From: Sporocytophaga sp.
GTDB lineage: Bacteria > Bacteroidota > Bacteroidia > Cytophagales > Cytophagaceae
Assembly (NCBI RefSeq): GCF_017745095.1
Contig: NZ_JAGHZZ010000002.1
Location: 1 to 64,000 of the forward strand
Length of the DNA stretch: 64,000 bases
Direction: 5' to 3'
Part shown: one piece after another, positions 46,008 through 55,515 of the stretch
How positions within the stretch are numbered: the first letter of the stretch is position 1
Layout: each line of letters begins with the position of its first letter
The notes under the pieces: generated by a model
The model's database searches: none
What the model was told of the DNA's origin: nothing
What the model saw: only the letters and a program-made list of their open reading frames with translations
Position numbers and translations under genes: made by a program

Positions 46008-46073
46008 AGTCTTTTAAGAGCAAATCAACAACTTGAATTCTACCTTCGTCAGAAGCTGATCTCTTAAAAGACT
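46008..46073. repeat. 13-nt inverted repeat at the smc / receiver gene junction
   Basis: AGTCTTTTAAGAG (46008-46020) is the exact reverse complement of CTCTTAAAAGACT (46061-46073), with a 40-nt loop. The stop codon of the minus-strand receiver gene lies in the left arm. It may serve as a 3'-end structure for both convergent transcripts. Confidence 0.55.
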
Positions 46074-46475
46074 CTTAACCAACTCCTTATTTTCCATTTT
46101 TAAACGATATACTTCGTAAGCTTTTTCAATGATTATTTTCAAATGCTGCTCTTCCCAGGGCTTGCTAATGTATTGATAGATATGCCCTTTATTTACTGCA
46201 TCTATAACTGCCTGAAGATCTGAATATCCCGTCAATAAGATTCTGATAGGGTCAGGATAAGTTTCAATAATTGATGAAAGAAACTCAACACCTGTCATTA
46301 CCGGCATCCTCTGATCGGTAATAATGATCTCAACCTTTTCAGCTTCAAGAACTTTCCTTCCCTCCTCAGCAGATTCAGCTATAAATATTTTAAAATACGG
46401 TCTGAATGTGGCCTTGAAAGCTGTCAGATTATTTTTTTCATCATCTATATATAGAATCCGTATCTTATCTTCCAT
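46014..46475 (-). CDS. single-domain response regulator
   Basis: A 153-residue receiver protein. Phospho-acceptor Asp54 lies in IITDQRMP, the acidic pair in YIDDEKNN, the switch Thr in LLTGYSD, and Lys in ISKPWEE. The 'TDQRMP...LLTGYSD' form is that of the RpfG-like/HD-GYP and ATPase-linked receivers, but no output domain follows; only a short helical tail (about 120-153) is present. The N-terminal 120 residues are closely similar to the receiver of the receiver-kinase hybrid at 52060, and the two bracket the E1/acyltransferase/kinase operon. Confidence 0.9.
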   Translation of the reverse strand: MEDKIRILYIDDEKNNLTAFKATFRPYFKIFIAESAEEGRKVLEAEKVEIIITDQRMPVMTGVEFLSSIIETYPDPIRILLTGYSDLQAVIDAVNKGHIYQYISKPWEEQHLKIIIEKAYEVYRLKMENKELVKSLLRDQLLTKVEFKLLICS

Positions 46476-46595
46476 AATTTTTTTGAAAAGTTTTTACGCA
46501 AAAACAAACGTATTTGTTGAATTTTTCCTTATTAAAGATATCTTAAATTGAATCAAGTAAAAATATAACCAATAATTAACTTTTTATCGTAAACG

Positions 46596-46609
46596 TAATC
46601 TTAGCTAAA
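46596..46609 (+). promoter_or_regulatory. promoter-like motif upstream of the E1/nitroreductase operon
   Basis: TAATCTTAGCTAAA is identical to the motif upstream of smc and ends only ten bases before the ATG, which would imply a nearly leaderless transcript if it is the -7 region. Confidence 0.45.
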
Positions 46610-46619
46610 AAATACTCAG

Positions 46620-48935
46620 ATGCATAACAAACTAAATTTACTAATTGAAAAAACAGAGAACCTGAGGGCTACCTATAAGCCTCTGTTATTCAGACTTAAT
46701 AGAGAAGAAGAGTTTGTTAAATTTAATGATCTCCTTAAATCCGAGTCTAATCTTTTAGTATTTGACGAGTTGCGCGGCCAGGTAAAAGAGCTGATTAAGT
46801 TAAGAAATCCTAAGACGAATCTGACTCAGGCAGAAATGGAGAATGAGATAAATAAATATTTTGCCAATAAAGATTCTGATAAATTAGGTGTTTGGGCATA
46901 TTATCCATGGGCAAATAAAATAGTACATTTACTTGATGAAGAGGAATTTGTAGAAGTAAGAACAAACAGAAATTTTTACAAAATCACTCCTGAAGAAAAA
47001 GATATACTTGCTCAGAAAAAAGTAGGAATTATAGGGCTGTCGGTAGGCCAGTCTGTATCGATGACAATGGCTATGGAAAGAAGTTTCGGGGAGATAAGAC
47101 TAGCGGACTTTGACATACTTGAACTTAGCAATTATAATAGAATAAGAACTCCATTATCCAATCTTGGAGTTTCCAAAGCCATCTCAGTAGCCAGAGAGAT
47201 TGCAGAAATAGATCCGTATCTTAATATTAAATGTTTTCCAGAAGGCCTTAATCAAGAAAACATGGACAAATTCTTCTGCGAAGGAGGAAAACTAGATTTG
47301 CTAATTGATGAATGTGATGGTTTTGACATAAAAATTTTAGCCAGGGTAAAAGCAAAAGAGTTAAAAATTCCAGTGGTGATGGAAGCCAGCGACAGATGTA
47401 TGCTTGATGTCGAACGTTTCGATCTTGAACCTGAAAGACCTTTACTTCATGGACTTGTTGGTGAATTGAATTTGGAGACGCTAAAATCATTAAAAACCAA
47501 TGAAGAAAAAATTCCATATCTACTGGCTATGATTGGCGTAGAAACCATTTCTACCCGATTAAAATCTTCAATGCTTGAAATTGAAGAAACAATAACGACC
47601 TGGCCACAACTTGCTTCGGCAGTTACATTAGGAGGCGGTATCACTGCAGATATCTGTCGGCGAATATTTACAGACGAATTTAAAAGTTCAGGGAGGTATT
47701 ATGTAGATCTCGAGGAACTAATATGTGATGACAAAGAGGATCATTCAAAATTATCAGAACCTGAGCATAATTCACCTCTTACCAAACCAGATCTAATTGA
47801 GCTGAGTAAGACCATTGCAGTAAATAGTCAGCCCTCGATTAAAGTATCCTCAGATCAAATTCAGGAACTTGTCTCTAGCGCTATCTTAGCGCCATCAGGG
47901 GGAAATAATCAACCATGGAAGTGGTTGTTTTCTGATAATAAGTTATACCTCTATCTTAACCCTCCATTTCAGAATTCATTACTTGACTTTGACTATAATG
48001 CTTCAACGATATCATTGGGAGCAGCTACAGAAAATCTATTACTTAAAGCAAAGGAAATAGGATTAAATATAGAAACTCATCTTTTTCCTAATCCGGAAGA
48101 TGATAAATTGGCAGCTATTTTTAATTTTATAAGGGAAAAGAATGAAGAGAATCAAAAAACAGAACATGGTTTTGAATATCTTTCAAAATACATCGATAGA
48201 AGAAATACAAACAGAAGTTTAAAAAATACTGGCAAAATTTCTTCCAAAGATATAATAGAATTAACAAAGGTAGTTGAATCAATCCCAGGCGCAAGCTTAC
48301 AGATAATTTCAGAAGAAGAAAAACTAATAAAACTCGGAATGATGATGGGCGTTGCTGACCGCCTAAGGGTTACTAATCCAAAAGGACACGCTGAATTTGT
48401 CTCCGAAATTAGGTGGAGTAAAGAAGAATCTGAAGATAAAATGGATGGAATTCCGGTAAGCGCCATAGACTTCACCCCTACAGAGTTGATAGGATACAGA
48501 CTTGCTAAAGACTGGAAAGTTGTGGAAAATCTGATTAAGTGGAACAAAGGCAAAGGATTTGAAAAATTATCCAGAAAACTAACGAATGCTTCCTCTGCAT
48601 TTGGACTAATTACAATGCCCTCTACATCTAAGGAGGATTACTTTAAAGGTGGCAGGGCTCTTCAAAGACTGTGGCTTCACGCAACAAGCATGAATATTAA
48701 TATCCAACCCAATACCGCACTGATATTCTTATTCGCCCAAATGTTCGGACAGAACAAAACATTAAATAAAAATTTACTAAGTGAACTTAATTTAATTCGG
48801 CCAGATTTCGAATCATTATTTAACCTTAATAATGCACAATGTTCAGAAATTTTTCTTTTCAGACTTTTCAAAACAGATATGACATTTGAAATTTCTAAAA
48901 GAAAGCCTATTGATAGTGTTTTATATTTCAATTGA
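46620..48935 (+). CDS. E1-like ThiF domain / nitroreductase fusion (Rv1355c-like)
   Basis: A 771-residue two-enzyme fusion. After about 125 N-terminal residues comes a ThiF/UBA-type adenylation domain: KVGIIGLSVGQS (nucleotide loop, 135-146), ADFDILELSNYNRIR (162-176, the Asp and Arg that contact ATP), and LLIDECDGFDIK. From about 415 the protein is a nitroreductase-fold FMN enzyme: LVSSAILAPSGGNNQPWKW and DRRNTNRSLKN. The pairing matches the Rv1355c family of actinobacteria and Bacteroidota, whose role is unknown to me. I see no CxxC zinc pairs of canonical MoeB/ThiF. It probably adenylates a carboxylate and oxidises or reduces the product. First gene of a three-gene operon. Confidence 0.85.
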   Translation: MHNKLNLLIEKTENLRATYKPLLFRLNREEEFVKFNDLLKSESNLLVFDELRGQVKELIKLRNPKTNLTQAEMENEINKYFANKDSDKLGVWAYYPWANKIVHLLDEEEFVEVRTNRNFYKITPEEKDILAQKKVGIIGLSVGQSVSMTMAMERSFGEIRLADFDILELSNYNRIRTPLSNLGVSKAISVAREIAEIDPYLNIKCFPEGLNQENMDKFFCEGGKLDLLIDECDGFDIKILARVKAKELKIPVVMEASDRCMLDVERFDLEPERPLLHGLVGELNLETLKSLKTNEEKIPYLLAMIGVETISTRLKSSMLEIEETITTWPQLASAVTLGGGITADICRRIFTDEFKSSGRYYVDLEELICDDKEDHSKLSEPEHNSPLTKPDLIELSKTIAVNSQPSIKVSSDQIQELVSSAILAPSGGNNQPWKWLFSDNKLYLYLNPPFQNSLLDFDYNASTISLGAATENLLLKAKEIGLNIETHLFPNPEDDKLAAIFNFIREKNEENQKTEHGFEYLSKYIDRRNTNRSLKNTGKISSKDIIELTKVVESIPGASLQIISEEEKLIKLGMMMGVADRLRVTNPKGHAEFVSEIRWSKEESEDKMDGIPVSAIDFTPTELIGYRLAKDWKVVENLIKWNKGKGFEKLSRKLTNASSAFGLITMPSTSKEDYFKGGRALQRLWLHATSMNINIQPNTALIFLFAQMFGQNKTLNKNLLSELNLIRPDFESLFNLNNAQCSEIFLFRLFKTDMTFEISKRKPIDSVLYFN

Positions 48936-48940
48936 TAATA

Positions 48941-49627
48941 ATGTATTATTTCAAGGCTTTTAAGGCAACGAGCAGTATAGAAACTTGCAGAAAATTTAGA
49001 GAAGGCCATAAAAAAGTCTTATTTGATTACGGAATTTCCAATATCACTACCAATAATGATGATTGGATGTTTTATGAATCGGTCTATGGAATTACTGCAG
49101 AAGATGAACACGGCGAAATAGTTGGCGGTATTCGTATACATGTTGCAGACGATGACCACCCTTTGCCTGTAGAAGATGCGGTAGGAGAAATAGATCCTAA
49201 GATATTTGGGCTTATCAGGCAATACTCAAATACCGGAACAGGCGAACTTTGTGGCTTATGGAATGCTAAATCAGTTGCAGGAATAGGCATTAGTTTGCTT
49301 TTGATCAGAGCAGGTATTTCTGTTGTTAATCAAATTAAACTCAATTCGCTTTTCACTATTTGTGCAGACTACACAATGCCAATGGTTAAAAAAGTTGGTT
49401 TTGAAGTAGAAGATTCTTTAGGCAATAAGGGCGAATTTATTTATCCTAATGAAAATTATATAGCAAGGGTCTTAAGAAGGATGAATGCCATTACCCTTGA
49501 AACTGCTCAGCCAGAAGATAGAGAAAGAATTTTAAATCTAAGAAACAATCCTGTTCAGATTACCTCAGAACAAGGACCAAAGGGAGATATCAGCATAAAT
49601 TATAATCTCATTATTTCCAATGTCTGA
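48941..49627 (+). CDS. GNAT-fold / autoinducer-synthase-like N-acyltransferase
   Basis: A 228-residue protein. FREGHKKVLFDYGI at the start, GEIVGGIRIHVADDDHPLPVE in the core strand, GELCGLWNAKSVAGIGISLLLIRAGI as the acyl-carrier pocket region and FTICADYTMPMVKKVGFEVE near the end resemble the GNAT-fold LuxI/FeeM-type acyl transferases that make acyl-homoserine lactones or N-acyl amino acids. The exact substrate is not evident. ATG at 48941 follows the upstream stop by five bases, and its own stop overlaps the downstream kinase start by eight bases, so translation of all three is probably coupled. Confidence 0.7.
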   Translation: MYYFKAFKATSSIETCRKFREGHKKVLFDYGISNITTNNDDWMFYESVYGITAEDEHGEIVGGIRIHVADDDHPLPVEDAVGEIDPKIFGLIRQYSNTGTGELCGLWNAKSVAGIGISLLLIRAGISVVNQIKLNSLFTICADYTMPMVKKVGFEVEDSLGNKGEFIYPNENYIARVLRRMNAITLETAQPEDRERILNLRNNPVQITSEQGPKGDISINYNLIISNV

Positions 49628-51800
49628 AAGAACTTCAATAGTTAAGGTTTTTATTACACTTTTAACCATAATATTATTCCAGGTATGTTATTCAACGCAT
49701 TCTTTTGCAGCTGAATCAAATAAACCACTCATTGTAAAAAACAATGATACACCTTACATGCTGGGAAAATATATCTCAGTTTACAAAAGCCTTAATAACT
49801 CTGAAACTATTAGTGATATTCTTAATGAAAATAAATTTGTAAAATCGGAAAATGAAGTCCCAAACCTTGGAATATCACCTTATTCCTTCTGGTTAAAGTT
49901 CTCTATCAAAAACGAAAGTGGACAGGACACCCTACTCCTATCTATAGAACAACCTTATCTCGACTCTATAGAATTTTATTCTCCTGAAAAAGGTACTTAT
50001 AAAGTCTTTAAAACAGGTGATAATTATACCTTCAGCAAAAGGCAATTTAAAAATCATAACTTCATCTTTAAGTTACCTGTAAAAAATAATCAGCTCCAAA
50101 CCTATTTTCTAAAAATCAAAACAGGAGAACAACTACTACTGCCCATGAAAGTGGGCACTTCCAAATCTATCTTTGAAGAAAACCATACAAAGGATATTAT
50201 CTTCGGAATTTACTGTGGAATCATCTTCGTGATGTTCTTTTACAATCTATTCTTATTCTTCACCGTGAAGGATAATATTTACCTGTCGTATGTTATTTAT
50301 ATATTATTTATCGGTTTAACTCAAGCATCAATATTAGGTTATCCAAATCAGTACCTATGGCCTGAATCTCCTTACATTGCCAATCTTAGTGTTTATATAT
50401 TTTCATGTCTGGTCAGCCTTTCTGCACTTGAATTTGTAAGGGTATTTCTATTGACTAAACAATATCTACCTACTATCCATAATTTATCTTATTTGATTAT
50501 TGCCGCATATTTAGTAACTGCTATTCTTGCCATATTAAAAATATATAACATAAGCTATTTCCTGGTTTTGTTTAATGCAGCAATGGTTTCTGCATATATG
50601 TTAATTGTCGGTTTTTTGATATTAAGGAAAGGATATAAACCAGCTAAATTCTTTTTACTCGGCTGGTCCTGGATGCTTGTTGGAATTATTATTTATGTTT
50701 TAAAAGATTTCCAGATACTTGGTAACAATATTTTTACAAATTATACAATGCCAGCGGGATCAGCAATGGAGGTCATTCTTCTTAGCTTCGCTCTTGCTGA
50801 TCGTATTAACACTTTAAAACAGGAAAAAGAAATTTCTCAAGCTGAAGCTATTAGAGCTATGGCAGAGAATGACAGAATTATAAGAGAACAAAATATAATC
50901 CTTGAGTCCAAAGTAGAAGAGCGTACGTCGGAACTACAACAATCTAATCAAGACCTTAACAAAGCACTGACTAACTTACAGGAAGCTCAATCGCAGCTTG
51001 TTGATGCTGAGAAAATGGCATCCCTCGGTCAGCTTACTGCTGGTATTGCACATGAAATTAATAATCCAATTAACTTTGTAAGCTCAAGTATAAATCCACT
51101 TAAGAGGGATATCCAGGGCCTAATGCAGATTCTTGAAGAATATGAAAAACTTCATAAGCAGGAGCCTCAGAATGTAAATCTCAAGGAGATCGAAAGATTA
51201 AAAGAAGACCTTGAATATGATTATCTGAAAGAAGAAATAGATATGATGCTCAGCGGAATTGCAGAAGGTGCCACCAGAACAGCTGAGATAGTTAAAAGTT
51301 TAAGAAACTTCTCTCGCCTCGATGAGGATGCTTTAAAACCTTCAGATCTAAACCAAGGTATTGATTCTACTTTAGTGCTTCTAAACAACAGCATGGATGG
51401 AAAAGTAAAAATTTCCAAATGCTACAATGATATACCATTTATTGAATGCTTCCCTGGAAAGATCAATCAGGTATTTATGAATATCCTTACCAACTCTATC
51501 CAGGCTGTGAAAGCAAAAAACATTGTAGATGGAGAAATTTCAATATCAACATTTGAGAAAGATGAATTTATAGGAGTTTCAATCAAAGACAATGGGATCG
51601 GAATGTCAGAAAAAACTAAGATGAAAATTTTTGAGCCCTTTTTTACTACAAAAGATGTTGGGGAAGGCACAGGCTTAGGATTATCTATCGTTTACACCAT
51701 TATTGAAAGTCATAAAGGAAAAATTGAAGTACATTCTGAGGAAGGCATTGGAACTGAATTCATCTTATACCTTCCTAAAAATCTCCAATCTTTAAAATAA
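49620..51800 (+). CDS. 7TMR-DISM sensor histidine kinase
   Basis: A 726-residue membrane receptor kinase. A signal peptide (about 1-30) is followed by an extracytoplasmic 7TMR-DISMED2 beta domain (about 40-185, PYSFWLKFSIKNES), a 7TMR-DISM seven-helix region (about 190-400), a coiled coil (400-465), a HisKA-type dimerisation domain with His478 in TAGIAHEINNPINF, and an HATPase with NSIQAVKAK, DNGIGMS and [10 protein letters not shown]. The DISMED2 domain is thought to bind carbohydrates or other small ligands. Overlaps the acyltransferase stop by eight bases, so it may sense a product of the two enzymes upstream. No receiver is fused; a receiver-kinase hybrid follows 259 bases later. Confidence 0.93.
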   Translation: MSERTSIVKVFITLLTIILFQVCYSTHSFAAESNKPLIVKNNDTPYMLGKYISVYKSLNNSETISDILNENKFVKSENEVPNLGISPYSFWLKFSIKNESGQDTLLLSIEQPYLDSIEFYSPEKGTYKVFKTGDNYTFSKRQFKNHNFIFKLPVKNNQLQTYFLKIKTGEQLLLPMKVGTSKSIFEENHTKDIIFGIYCGIIFVMFFYNLFLFFTVKDNIYLSYVIYILFIGLTQASILGYPNQYLWPESPYIANLSVYIFSCLVSLSALEFVRVFLLTKQYLPTIHNLSYLIIAAYLVTAILAILKIYNISYFLVLFNAAMVSAYMLIVGFLILRKGYKPAKFFLLGWSWMLVGIIIYVLKDFQILGNNIFTNYTMPAGSAMEVILLSFALADRINTLKQEKEISQAEAIRAMAENDRIIREQNIILESKVEERTSELQQSNQDLNKALTNLQEAQSQLVDAEKMASLGQLTAGIAHEINNPINFVSSSINPLKRDIQGLMQILEEYEKLHKQEPQNVNLKEIERLKEDLEYDYLKEEIDMMLSGIAEGATRTAEIVKSLRNFSRLDEDALKPSDLNQGIDSTLVLLNNSMDGKVKISKCYNDIPFIECFPGKINQVFMNILTNSIQAVKAKNIVDGEISISTFEKDEFIGVSIKDNGIGMSEKTKMKIFEPFFTTKDVGEGTGLGLSIVYTIIESHKGKIEVHSEEGIGTEFILYLPKNLQSLK

Positions 51801-51809
51801 GCAATTAAG

Positions 51810-51858
51810 CTTTATACTTTGAAATGGAAACCTTATTGGAAGATTTCCAGTATAAAAG
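51810..51858 (+). other. hairpin after the 7TMR-DISM kinase gene
   Basis: TTTATACT (51811-51818) pairs with AGTATAAA (51849-51856), with an inner GGAAA/TTTCC pair. There is no clean T-run after it, so it is a weak terminator or 3' stabilising structure. Confidence 0.35.
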
Positions 51859-52059
51859 GTTCGTTTATATGCAAGCGTGGGATCTGAAACATTAGATTTT
51901 ACTTCTTCCTAACTACTATACTCTTATTTTTTGGTACTTTTCACCTTTTTAAAGGGAAAGAAATATAAGTAATCCGGGAATAAAGTATTTGGTATAAATT
52001 TTATATTATATTTACTAAAAAAACAAAACACTTTGAAATAGAATAATTTTCAACACCTT

Positions 52060-53163
52060 ATGGAAGACAAAATCAGGGTTTTGTATGTTGATGACGACGA
52101 ATACAATTTGAGAGTGTTCAAAGCTTCTTTTCGATTTGATTATCAAATTTTTCTTGCAAAATCAGCAAAAGAAGGTCTTGAAGTACTTAAGGATAACGAA
52201 ATTCACGTAATCATAGCTGACCAGAAAATGCCTGAGGTGACCGGTGTTCAGTTTTTTGAATCTCTGATCAGCCAATACCCGGAAACCATTAGAATATTAC
52301 TTACCGGATATAGCGATATAGAATCCGTTATTGATGCCATTAACAAGGGAAAGATTTTTTATTATATCAAAAAACCCTGGAACGAGACAGATATCAAACT
52401 GGCTATTGAAAAAGCAGGAGAAATATATCTTACCAAAAAACTTCTAAAAAAAAGAACTGAGGACCTGCAGAAGGCAAATGAAGAACTTACAAGATTTGTG
52501 TACAGTGCTTCACATGAGTTAAAAGCCCCGCTTATGACCATTATTGGGGTTTTGAAAGTAGCAGATATGGATCAAAATAAAACCGACGATATGTATCTCA
52601 GCATGATCGAAAAATCTGTCAAAAACCTTGATCTCTTTGTAAGAAACATTGTCAACTACTACAAAAACTCCAGAATAGAAGAAACACTTTCAGAAATCAA
52701 TTTTGACCAGATACTGGATGAAAATATAAAAAGCTTTGATGGCTTTAATGGAATTAATTTCGCAATCGATATTGTCAACCTTTCTCCTTTTAAAAGTGAT
52801 GATTTTCGGATTAAGGTAATCCTCAACAATATTTTATCAAATGCGGTCAAATATCAGAAGAAAGACAATCCTGAAAAGAAAATAGAAATCAAAATCCATA
52901 CTACACCCGAAAAAGCAGAAATTTCTATCACAGATAATGGTATTGGCATTCAGGAAAAACATCTTCCAAGTATCTTTAAAATGTTTTTCAGAGGTACTCA
53001 TTATAGCGATGGTTCTGGTATAGGATTATACATTGCCAAAGAAGCTGTTGACAAGCTAAATGGTTCTATCAAGGTTGAATCTGAAGAAGGAAAATTTACC
53101 AGATTTATGATAGAAATTCCAAACAGCTTTGCAACATCTCTTCAGGCAGCTGCTTTGAGATAA
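52060..53163 (+). CDS. receiver-histidine kinase hybrid
   Basis: A 367-residue soluble protein: receiver domain (1-120, phospho-acceptor Asp54 in IIADQKMP, acidic pocket in YVDDDEYN), short coiled coil, HisKA with His152 in YSASHELKAP, and HATPase (DNGIGIQ, GSGIGLYIAKEA). The receiver is a close paralogue of the single-domain regulator at 46014. In this arrangement the receiver probably controls the kinase. The upstream 259 bases hold a TATATTTAC promoter-like motif near 52006. Its 3' end overlaps by 22 bases the 3' end of the convergent PAS kinase gene. Confidence 0.92.
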   Translation: MEDKIRVLYVDDDEYNLRVFKASFRFDYQIFLAKSAKEGLEVLKDNEIHVIIADQKMPEVTGVQFFESLISQYPETIRILLTGYSDIESVIDAINKGKIFYYIKKPWNETDIKLAIEKAGEIYLTKKLLKKRTEDLQKANEELTRFVYSASHELKAPLMTIIGVLKVADMDQNKTDDMYLSMIEKSVKNLDLFVRNIVNYYKNSRIEETLSEINFDQILDENIKSFDGFNGINFAIDIVNLSPFKSDDFRIKVILNNILSNAVKYQKKDNPEKKIEIKIHTTPEKAEISITDNGIGIQEKHLPSIFKMFFRGTHYSDGSGIGLYIAKEAVDKLNGSIKVESEEGKFTRFMIEIPNSFATSLQAAALR

Positions 53164-55325
53164 ACCTTAAATGTGGTTCCTTTGTCAGGAGCTGATTCCA
53201 CTTCAATTCTCCCTCCATTTTTATCTACTATTCTTTTCACCAAGTACAAACCGATTCCGCTTCCATCCACATGAAAATGTAATCTTTTGAACATTGAAAA
53301 AATATTATTTTTCAGACTTGGGTCAAAACCAATACCGTTGTCACTCACTTCAAAATATACATAATCATTCTCACAACCTGTCTTTATCACAACACTCGGT
53401 GTTCTGAAAGGAGATCTGTATTTGATAGCATTAGATAGAAGGTTATATAAAATGCTCTTTAGATTCGTGCGAGAAAACCGGATATTGGGACAATTAGAGA
53501 AATCTGTGATTACTTCTGCATTGCAGGAAGAAATCATTTCTTTAATATTTTGTTTGATTTCATCAACGACCTGACCTATTTCAATTATTGCATGATCATC
53601 AGAAGACGCGTCACTTATTTTTGCTATGTCTGTAAGACCTTGCAAAGTATCTTTAAAGTTACCAATTGACCTGTGTATTAAATCCATTATCATAGAGGTA
53701 GCTTTGCTGTTCCCTGCTTTAAGCTCAGCATCCAAGGTAAAAATTAACCCTTCAATGTTCGACATCGGAGCTTTTAGATCATGAGAAGCGCTATAGACAA
53801 AATTGTCCAGGTCATCGTTAATTCTGAGTAATTCTTCATTCCTTTGTTTTAACTCTCCTTCAGCTTTCTCTCTTTCAATTACTTCCTTTTGAAGCTCTTC
53901 ATTTAATACTGAAAGCTGAAAAGTTCTTTCTTCTACCCTTTCCTCCAATTCATTATTGATTACAATCAATGCCTCTTCAGCTTTTTTGAGTTCTTCATTC
54001 TTCTCTGACAAAGCCTGATGTTTTGCCCTTATCTCCTCTTCTATTCTTCTACGTTCAGATATATCCAGAATGATGCCTTTAAGCTTATAAGGGCGATTAT
54101 GAATTGAAATGACCTTTCCCTTTATAAATAAAAACTGATCTTTATCTTTTATCCTTATCTCTGTCGAAAATGACTTATTTCCCTCAACAGATTCCTTAAT
54201 AAGCTCTTCTAATATTTCACAATCAACAGGATTAATAAAATCCTTAAAGCTTGTAAAGGTTAAATCTCCAGTATTATCCAGATTAAATAGTTTTAAAATC
54301 TCCTCTGAACATTTTAGTTTATTGGATTTTATATTCCATTCCCATATGCCTAACCTAGCTATATCCTGCACTTCCTTTAATTCCGCAAGGCTGTTCTTCA
54401 ATCTATCTTCAAGAACCTTCCTTTCTGAAATATCATTAACTATGCAGATCCCACCTGTAATCTTCTTTTCCTCATGTTTCAAAGGTATCAGGACTGCATC
54501 GAAAAAACCTTTTTTACCATTGCGGTTTAAATCTTCTAGGTTTATAATAACTCCTTCCAGTACATTTCTAAAAAACACTTCTTCGCCTGAAAATTTGTAT
54601 TCCGGGAACAAATCAAATAAGTGTCGCCCTATAACATCTTCTTTCTTCAGATTATTATGCTCCTCTAACAGTCTATTCCATGTAGTTATCCTGAAATTTC
54701 TGTCAAAAGAAAGAACACCGAAATTCACATTGTTGATCAAGGTATCTTTAAATCTCCTTTCTCTGGCTACAATTTTCACAGCTTTTTCTTTTTCCCTGAT
54801 TTCTCTTATCAGCAGCTCATTGGAAATTTGTAACTCTTCATTTTTCTTTCGGATTATATCATTATGAATTTCTGAAGAAAGCTTTAAAATAAGCTCTTCT
54901 ATATGCAAATGGTAATCATTCAATTCCTGTACAATGGAAAGAGCCTTCTTTACATCTTTTGTAAATTCTGGTAAGAACTGAAGTAAAATATCTTTTCGAA
55001 TTCCAAATCCTATAAGCAAATCAGAAGGTTGTACTGAATATTTATTCACCTCATAAGGCAAAGCACCATGCTTCCATTGGTCAGTAAGTTGCATTATCTC
55101 CTCCAGACACCTGTTGGCAATAGCATCATTTAAAAATAACACCAACCTGTCTCTGAAAAATGACATCAGCACTTTTTCCGGAACATCCCGAAACAGGGTG
55201 ATCAAAGGCAAATCAAGTGACTTTATATTATTAAAATAACTTACACAAATTTCCTCCAAAACATTGCTCAAACAAAACTCAGCAAACTCTTTAAAATGGT
55301 TAAATATAAAACTTGTAGTTTTCAT
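53142..55325 (-). CDS. soluble PAS-domain sensor histidine kinase
   Basis: A 727-residue kinase without membrane segments. The N-terminal about 170 residues are an RsbR-like helical sensor (FEQWKHG..., QPSDLLIGFGIRKDILLQF). Two PAS domains follow at about 200-320 (GVLSFDRNFRITTWNRLLEE, with SERKVLE) and about 325-450 (LGIWEWNIKSNKLKCSEE, SERRRIE), then a long coiled coil, HisKA with YSASHDLKAPMSNIEG, and HATPase (DNGIGFD, GSGIGLYLVKRI). The ATG at 55325 (MKTTSF) is preferred over a TTG 21 bases upstream. The kinase core closely resembles the hybrid at 58877. Confidence 0.9.
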   Translation of the reverse strand: MKTTSFIFNHFKEFAEFCLSNVLEEICVSYFNNIKSLDLPLITLFRDVPEKVLMSFFRDRLVLFLNDAIANRCLEEIMQLTDQWKHGALPYEVNKYSVQPSDLLIGFGIRKDILLQFLPEFTKDVKKALSIVQELNDYHLHIEELILKLSSEIHNDIIRKKNEELQISNELLIREIREKEKAVKIVARERRFKDTLINNVNFGVLSFDRNFRITTWNRLLEEHNNLKKEDVIGRHLFDLFPEYKFSGEEVFFRNVLEGVIINLEDLNRNGKKGFFDAVLIPLKHEEKKITGGICIVNDISERKVLEDRLKNSLAELKEVQDIARLGIWEWNIKSNKLKCSEEILKLFNLDNTGDLTFTSFKDFINPVDCEILEELIKESVEGNKSFSTEIRIKDKDQFLFIKGKVISIHNRPYKLKGIILDISERRRIEEEIRAKHQALSEKNEELKKAEEALIVINNELEERVEERTFQLSVLNEELQKEVIEREKAEGELKQRNEELLRINDDLDNFVYSASHDLKAPMSNIEGLIFTLDAELKAGNSKATSMIMDLIHRSIGNFKDTLQGLTDIAKISDASSDDHAIIEIGQVVDEIKQNIKEMISSCNAEVITDFSNCPNIRFSRTNLKSILYNLLSNAIKYRSPFRTPSVVIKTGCENDYVYFEVSDNGIGFDPSLKNNIFSMFKRLHFHVDGSGIGLYLVKRIVDKNGGRIEVESAPDKGTTFKVYLKAAA

Positions 55326-55515
55326 CCTTATGATATTGCCTATCAAATGAAAAAACAGGGTATACCTAGAATTGTTTGTTATTACAATAATTGATTATGG
55401 AATCCTTAATTTTAAGGAGTAGTTTTTTTTATAACATTCATGAATTAAAAAAATGTAAAAAATAGATATCCTTGAAATATCTAACCAAAATCTTATGACT
55501 CTTTAACCTAATTTT

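Follow-up and report, generated by a model that had tools for sequence, protein, structure and literature searches.

A putative synthase-receptor cassette for oxazolone-type signals in Sporocytophaga and related Bacteroidia

Why should a cyclase fused to a flavin-dependent oxidase, an acyltransferase and a membrane receptor kinase share one apparent operon? The question is raised by a 64,000-nucleotide stretch of a Sporocytophaga contig (the whole of which is called the window here), in which three genes (Table 1) are packed with a gap of 5 bases between genes 1 and 2 and an overlap of 8 bases between genes 2 and 3. A previous sequence-only reading of the window had described this packing, which the ORF coordinates bear out, and had proposed that genes 1 and 2 make a signal, that gene 3 detects it, and that two flanking paralogous receivers relay it. 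The two receivers are 57% identical to each other over 126 aa, but the downstream one proved to be part of a receiver-histidine kinase hybrid. No DNA-binding domain was found with Pfam in any protein of the window's cassette. The order of genes 1, 2 and 3 is kept in nine of ten related loci, eight of which also have the divergent receiver; in the exception (L008) the sequence begins at a contig end within the neighbourhood of gene 1, and the tenth locus (L012), although just a contig stub, carries the acyltransferase and the kinase. Three congeners (L055, L057 and L053, the last being the same record as L003) have separate receiver and kinase ORFs in place of the window's single hybrid, about 1 kb apart in L003, and the position of the PAS kinase is repeated in the same loci of the genus (L003/L053, L055, L057).

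Table 1. Features of the cassette and its immediate surroundings, in window coordinates.
Feature	Position	Strand	Basis or remark
Stand-alone response-regulator receiver	46014-46475	-	PF00072; divergent from operon
Intergenic, presumed promoter region between divergent receiver and operon	46476-46619	.	Position alone
Gene 1, ThiF-like cyclase fused to flavin-dependent oxidase (Rv1355c/TrzS family)	46620-48935	+	NF005901; ThiF, Nitroreductase (Pfam)
Gene 2, GNAT-fold, FeeM-like, probable N-acyltransferase and N-acyl amino acid synthase (from sequence and predicted structure)	48941-49627	+	228 aa; ATG at 48941
Gene 3, 7TMR-DISM receptor histidine kinase (DISMED2 sensor, 7TM, HisKA-like, HATPase)	49620-51800	+	
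Receiver-histidine kinase hybrid	52060-53163	+	367 aa; PF00072, PF00512, PF02518
PAS histidine kinase, convergent on receiver-kinase hybrid	53142-55346	-	Neighbour, outside cassette count

Gene 1 encodes a ThiF-like cyclase fused to an oxidase of the nitroreductase family, which confirms its earlier description as an E1-like domain with a flavin oxidoreductase, and it scored 773.7 bits against the NF005901 'Rv1355c family' model (cut-off 476). Rv1355c is TrzS, which together with TrzA (Rv1356c) makes N-acyl tryptazolones in Mycobacterium and Rhodococcus; in the available text of that study, ATP-dependent cyclisation of N-acyl tryptophan is assigned to the ThiF domain, and desaturation of the product with O2 to the flavin domain; oxazolones are opened by acid and by methanol (PMC12856293). 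TyzACB of Mtb is described as carrying out the same chemistry on tyrosine with unfused genes (PMC10404671), and OxzAB of Pseudoalteromonas rubra as converting an N-acyl amino acid to an oxazolone with the same activities (cited in the available parts of PMC12856293 and PMC10404671). By analogy, the acylated, cyclised and oxidised product that had been guessed from the sequence matches the reactions reported in these texts for TrzAS, TyzACB and OxzAB. The accompanying claim that no such pathway had been described does not hold for the chemistry of genes 1 and 2, but it stands for a receptor: no report linking a receptor to acyl-oxazolone-type genes was found in the literature searched, which left out most subscription papers and preprints, and with the same coverage no publication was found on a 7TMR-DISM protein with an acyltransferase, or on a synthase of N-acyl amino acid methyl ester signals, in Bacteroidetes.

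Among actinobacterial plasmid proteins, 11 align with most of gene 1, at 32-33% identity; TrzS itself lies outside this comparison. With four actinobacterial Rv1355c-family proteins, gene 1 has in common D233 and D236 (an ECD..D motif), R528, R583 and APSGGN-QPW, and D233/D236 and R583 are invariant across eight aligned TrzS-like rows. The distance from D to R is 322 or 325 in two mycobacterial relatives, 323 in TrzS (D217/R540) and 347 or 350 in the window. The spacing in the mycobacterial relatives agrees with that of TrzS, and these residues of gene 1 may correspond to its active-site pair D217/R540, a mapping inferred with the M. smegmatis sequence outside the comparison.

Gene 2 reached no family cut-off in Pfam or NCBIfam. 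Its predicted structure had FeeM as the top structural match (PDB 2g0b, 10% identity over the aligned part) and conforms to both the FeeM fold and the AHL-synthase fold; the model used had a pLDDT of 84.3 after a paralogue and a partial row had been added, a first, poor model with a pLDDT of 58 having been discarded. The suggested resemblance of gene 2 to the LuxI/FeeM group survives at the level of the modelled fold but not at that of sequence families. Membership of the LuxI family was dropped as a candidate, as six Pfam families in all matched any of 47 members of the acyltransferase set (E 0.1), none of them an autoinducer synthase. Searches of PDB sequences with the acyltransferase profiles gave chance matches alone, and a plasmid search with gene 2 gave nothing at E 1. 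Judged by sequence and model, gene 2 is probably an N-acyltransferase that acts as an N-acyl amino acid synthase.

Outside the phylum, the acyltransferase profile matched the protein beside Rhodococcus/Nocardia Rv1355c-family genes (93%, E 3e-7; three sequences, two of them nearly identical), with the known partners TrzA, TyzA and OxzA themselves lying outside this comparison. The idea that an acyltransferase also accompanies the actinobacterial Rv1355c-family genes is supported by this match but not by the one neighbour each that was compared in L151 and L155 (no match, 0.1-0.5%). There was likewise no match (0.1-0.5%) to a GNAT protein beside a Streptomyces ThiF gene, the N-terminus of another Streptomyces ThiF protein or a Nitratidesulfovibrio fusion protein, and none to three controls (3.1% or less). 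The two Streptomyces plasmid ThiF proteins (L152:6155-9069 and L153:6923-8721) are 41-43% identical to gene 1 over 43-46% of its length and come without an oxidase; one is extended at its N-terminus and has a ketoacyl synthase III gene beside it, and the other has the GNAT neighbour. The Nitratidesulfovibrio plasmid (L154:4237-7161) encodes a 974-aa ThiF and nitroreductase protein with an N-terminal region of ~300 aa beside PEP-CTERM genes. On two Rhodococcus plasmids (L150, L157), a GGDEF gene lies beside the acyltransferase-like and Rv1355c-family genes, echoing the c-di-GMP genes at trzAS.

Gene 3 had been called a 7TMR-DISM kinase, and it has the full DISMED, 7TM and kinase output architecture of this class: PF07696 (7TMR-DISMED2, 112.8 bits), PF07695 (7TMR-DISM_7TM, 167.8 bits) and the HATPase domain (84.4 bits) all scored above their cut-offs, while HisKA (24.7) fell slightly below its cut-off of 26.9. 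HEINN, DNGIG and GEGTGL motifs are present.

Relatives of gene 2 (E<=1e-6) were found in 94 of 390 genomes of the window's order and in 76 of 395 of its class, corresponding to 27 of the 129 genera sampled in the order and 44 of the 197 in the class, with Pedobacter among the named genera. The nearest named record is a Sporocytophaga MAG (94% identity for gene 2), followed by Pedobacter and by Bacteroidia/Sphingobacteriaceae MAGs. The Rv1355c family (NF005901, E<=1e-60) was matched in 10 of the 395 genomes of the phylum sample, of which five exceed the family cut-off and six match just its ThiF half. An acyltransferase and a DISM kinase adjoin the Rv1355c-family gene in all ten. This co-occurrence, which the sequence-only reading had put forward as a check, strengthens its guess of a signalling role, with detection of the product by the kinase remaining conditional; it does not extend to the four annotated actinobacterial plasmid loci read, where no kinase was found beside the Rv1355c-family gene.

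The order search (98) and the class search (77) shared 5 places and together gave 170 distinct places with an acyltransferase, one of which is the window. Of the other 169, 152 were fetched, one lies inside L188 and the remaining 16 were left out. Five fetched loci in which no acyltransferase ORF was called (L076, L113, L149, L225 and L238) were excluded from the 147 that were counted, which represent 143 genomes. One of these five (L225:7853-11827) holds a cassette with ThiF and a DISM kinase and no acyltransferase ORF called between them, yet the DNA search matched there. Gene order was read without counting antisense ORFs of <130 aa.

In 139 of the 147 loci of the window's class, the acyltransferase is followed on the same strand by a 7TMR-DISM gene, in a sample where distant receptor-less acyltransferases would be under-represented, the search profiles having been built from cassettes. 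The receptor is the next gene in 121 loci and one gene further in 18. Where at least 3 kb of downstream sequence was available, the linkage was 133 of 138, and 25 of 28 families show it, so that both genes stay linked across lineages as expected of a synthase-receptor pair. The median spacing between them is -4 nt, and 76 of the 139 pairs overlap, both figures on longest-ORF starts that make the overlaps upper bounds. Among the linked loci, 118 have a receiver-only gene on the opposite strand, no more than four genes before the acyltransferase, 105 have a receiver-kinase hybrid no more than five genes downstream, and in 129 the receptor carries a kinase domain; the ten receptors without one comprise six of the SpoIIE type and four that are broken or cut by a contig end (L068, L079, L094, L202). 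Eight loci have no receptor. Two of them are contig-cut (L141, L146) and one rests on a doubtful 137-aa ORF (L148), but five stand: in L136, L143, L145, L147 and L239, which are uncut at the next gene, no receptor was found beside the acyltransferase, and this counts against a synthase-receptor reading. Copy number varies in places, with one acyltransferase followed by four consecutive DISM kinases in L064:9703-18685, possibly a case of receptor diversification, two acyltransferases before one receptor in L188, and the cassette present twice in genome G559 (L054, L060).

While receptor and synthase stay together, the enzymes around them change. Beside the acyltransferase, the 139 linked loci have ThiF with an oxidase (86), ThiF without an oxidase (37), an oxidase alone (1; L208, where gene 1 runs off the contig) or neither (15). 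Among the 87 ThiF-oxidase fusions in the fetched set, the APSxGNxQPW motif of the oxidase was found in 57 and RxTNR in 70, which is why the oxidase part may be degenerating in certain lineages. Given these motif counts and the 37 loci without an oxidase, a desaturated product is not general. Pfam identified a FAD_binding_4 oxidase beside or near the acyltransferase in L066, L137, L138 and L139, and an unscanned ORF of like size and place is present in L140, L142 and L144. In L211, L218, L223 and L224 a class I methyltransferase (Pfam) replaces the ThiF-oxidase, with an unscanned gene of the same size in L228 and L241, and in L226 its place is taken by a protein of the ICMT (isoprenylcysteine carboxyl methyltransferase) family (Pfam). 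I read these tailoring enzymes as acting on the N-acyl amino acid. Output changes as well: DISMED2 and 7TM are retained in the receptors of families f57 and f59, whose output is a SpoIIE phosphatase (three of the six were tested with Pfam). The linkage is kept through swaps of both tailoring enzyme and output, and the sensor class and the synthase are therefore the constants of the cassette.

The history of the sensors was examined in a tree of 67 linked and 20 unlinked sensors, the latter picked by me from eight genomes. All 61 linked kinase-type sensors fell into one group of 63 members (SH-aLRT 97) that also holds two unlinked intruders (L247, L260), while 18 of the 20 unlinked sensors clustered apart from them. 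The six SpoIIE-type sensors sit in a nine-row group together with three unlinked ones. The hypothesis that the linked receptors all form a single clade was rejected with 87 rows (p-AU 2.5e-6) but survived with 49 rows (p-AU 0.08), a set from which four unlinked sensors, L260 and L247 included, had been dropped and in which the kinase-type sensors had been thinned to 27. The links to SpoIIE-type and to kinase-type receptors may thus have a single origin or two separate ones. Across 33 loci, taken at no more than two per family from the 110 with all modules, median identity was 26% for the sensor domain, 38% for the acyltransferase, 42% for the 7TM region, 49% for ThiF, 52% for the kinase and 54% for the receiver. 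Sensor and acyltransferase are the most divergent modules, as would be expected if the signal and its sensor changed while the transduction machinery was conserved. Periplasmic domains generally evolve fast, and for this reason the divergence of the sensor domain is weak evidence. Acyltransferase distances track those of the sensor domain weakly (Spearman 0.19; 0.40 for 7TM), and such correlations between acyltransferase and receptor were set aside as too weak to serve as evidence of co-evolution.

I lean towards reading the gene set as a synthase-receptor signalling cassette for oxazolone-type signals, with a logic like that of LuxM/LuxN. In the LuxM/LuxN and CqsA/CqsS quorum-sensing pairs, the gene of a signal synthase lies beside that of a membrane sensor kinase, as it does here, whereas their synthases and sensor domains are unrelated to those of the window, and the output regulator of the window is not among the known parts. 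In the proposed scheme, gene 2 would transfer the fatty acyl group of a thioester onto an amino acid, the ThiF domain of gene 1 would adenylate the carboxylate and thereby close an oxazolone ring, and the flavin domain would desaturate the oxazolone wherever the oxidase domain is intact. The neutral, lipophilic product would leave the cell, and the gene 3 kinase would detect it with its periplasmic/7TM sensor and hand phosphate on to both the divergent receiver and the receiver-kinase hybrid. The oxazolone is predicted by analogy with the characterised relatives, and export, recognition by gene 3 and the phosphorelay would follow as steps of the same model.

Those relatives share the chemistry predicted for the window and differ in what surrounds it. 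TrzAS pairs an acyltransferase gene with an adjacent ThiF-flavin oxidase fusion belonging to the same NCBI family, but the available text mentions c-di-GMP genes nearby and no histidine kinase or receptor (PMC12856293). TyzACB and OxzAB have the same three activities, and the nearest folds of TyzA are FeeM and BjaI, as for gene 2; in contrast, the TyzACB genes are unfused, and the text seen mentions neither a histidine kinase nor a receptor (PMC10404671). The stieleriacine, thalassotalic acid and kyonggic acid clusters are also described as having ThiF and nitroreductase genes alongside one for an N-acyl amino acid synthase, but they belong to other phyla, and no histidine kinase is mentioned in the portion of the text available; the Stieleria cluster has a methyltransferase gene in addition, and methylation of stieleriacines is expected on the tyrosine ring (PMC12479983).

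The main competing explanation, possible if unlikely, is that the kinase senses an external stress and controls the synthesis of an oxazolone that is used as a membrane lipid, an inhibitor or an antibiotic. Tight operon linkage alone fits this as well, and the tryptazolone study, as far as available, reports that sub-inhibitory antibiotics induce oxazolone production in several proteobacteria and that there are genetic links to stress in mycobacteria (PMC12856293). However, the proteins of the window's cassette include no DNA-binding regulator, the receptor class stays constant while the enzymes that alter the product are swapped, and in the loci with SpoIIE-type receptors it is the output that varies and the sensor class that is fixed. 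It is doubtful, secondly, that the N-acyl amino acid is itself the signal and that gene 1 trims, masks or inactivates it, with the oxazolone as a by-product or off-switch. In one locus (L222), acyltransferase and receptor have no tailoring gene either between them or immediately in front, and acyl-tryptophans were found mainly in the supernatant while oxazolones were more abundant in cells, according to the text available (PMC12856293). Against this, ThiF is kept beside the acyltransferase in 123 of the 139 linked loci, and among the 15 that lack both ThiF and oxidase, nine have another enzyme identified by Pfam and five an unscanned gene that matches one. Chance association of unrelated genes, or general operon inertia, is very improbable and, judged informally, not credible for adjacency in 139 of 147 loci, because genomes carry 2-16 DISMED2 genes (E<=1e-8; ten genomes examined) and the linkage is kept through enzyme replacement.

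A synthase paired with its receptor is the reading that I favour, and it bears on a question that the discoverers of the tryptazolone pathway call major and unresolved, namely the role of oxazolones, for which they offer the likeness to acyl-homoserine lactones and the nearby c-di-GMP genes as hints of signalling (available text of PMC12856293). Here, enzymes of the same family share one apparent operon with a receptor kinase, which makes that role testable, and the cassette offers a concrete ligand-receptor hypothesis outside mycobacteria. It may also supply a ligand class for part of the large set of orphan 7TMR-DISM receptors. If the reading is true, oxazolones would have gained a first function, as a signal, and DISMED2 receptors the first lipid-type ligand class known to me.
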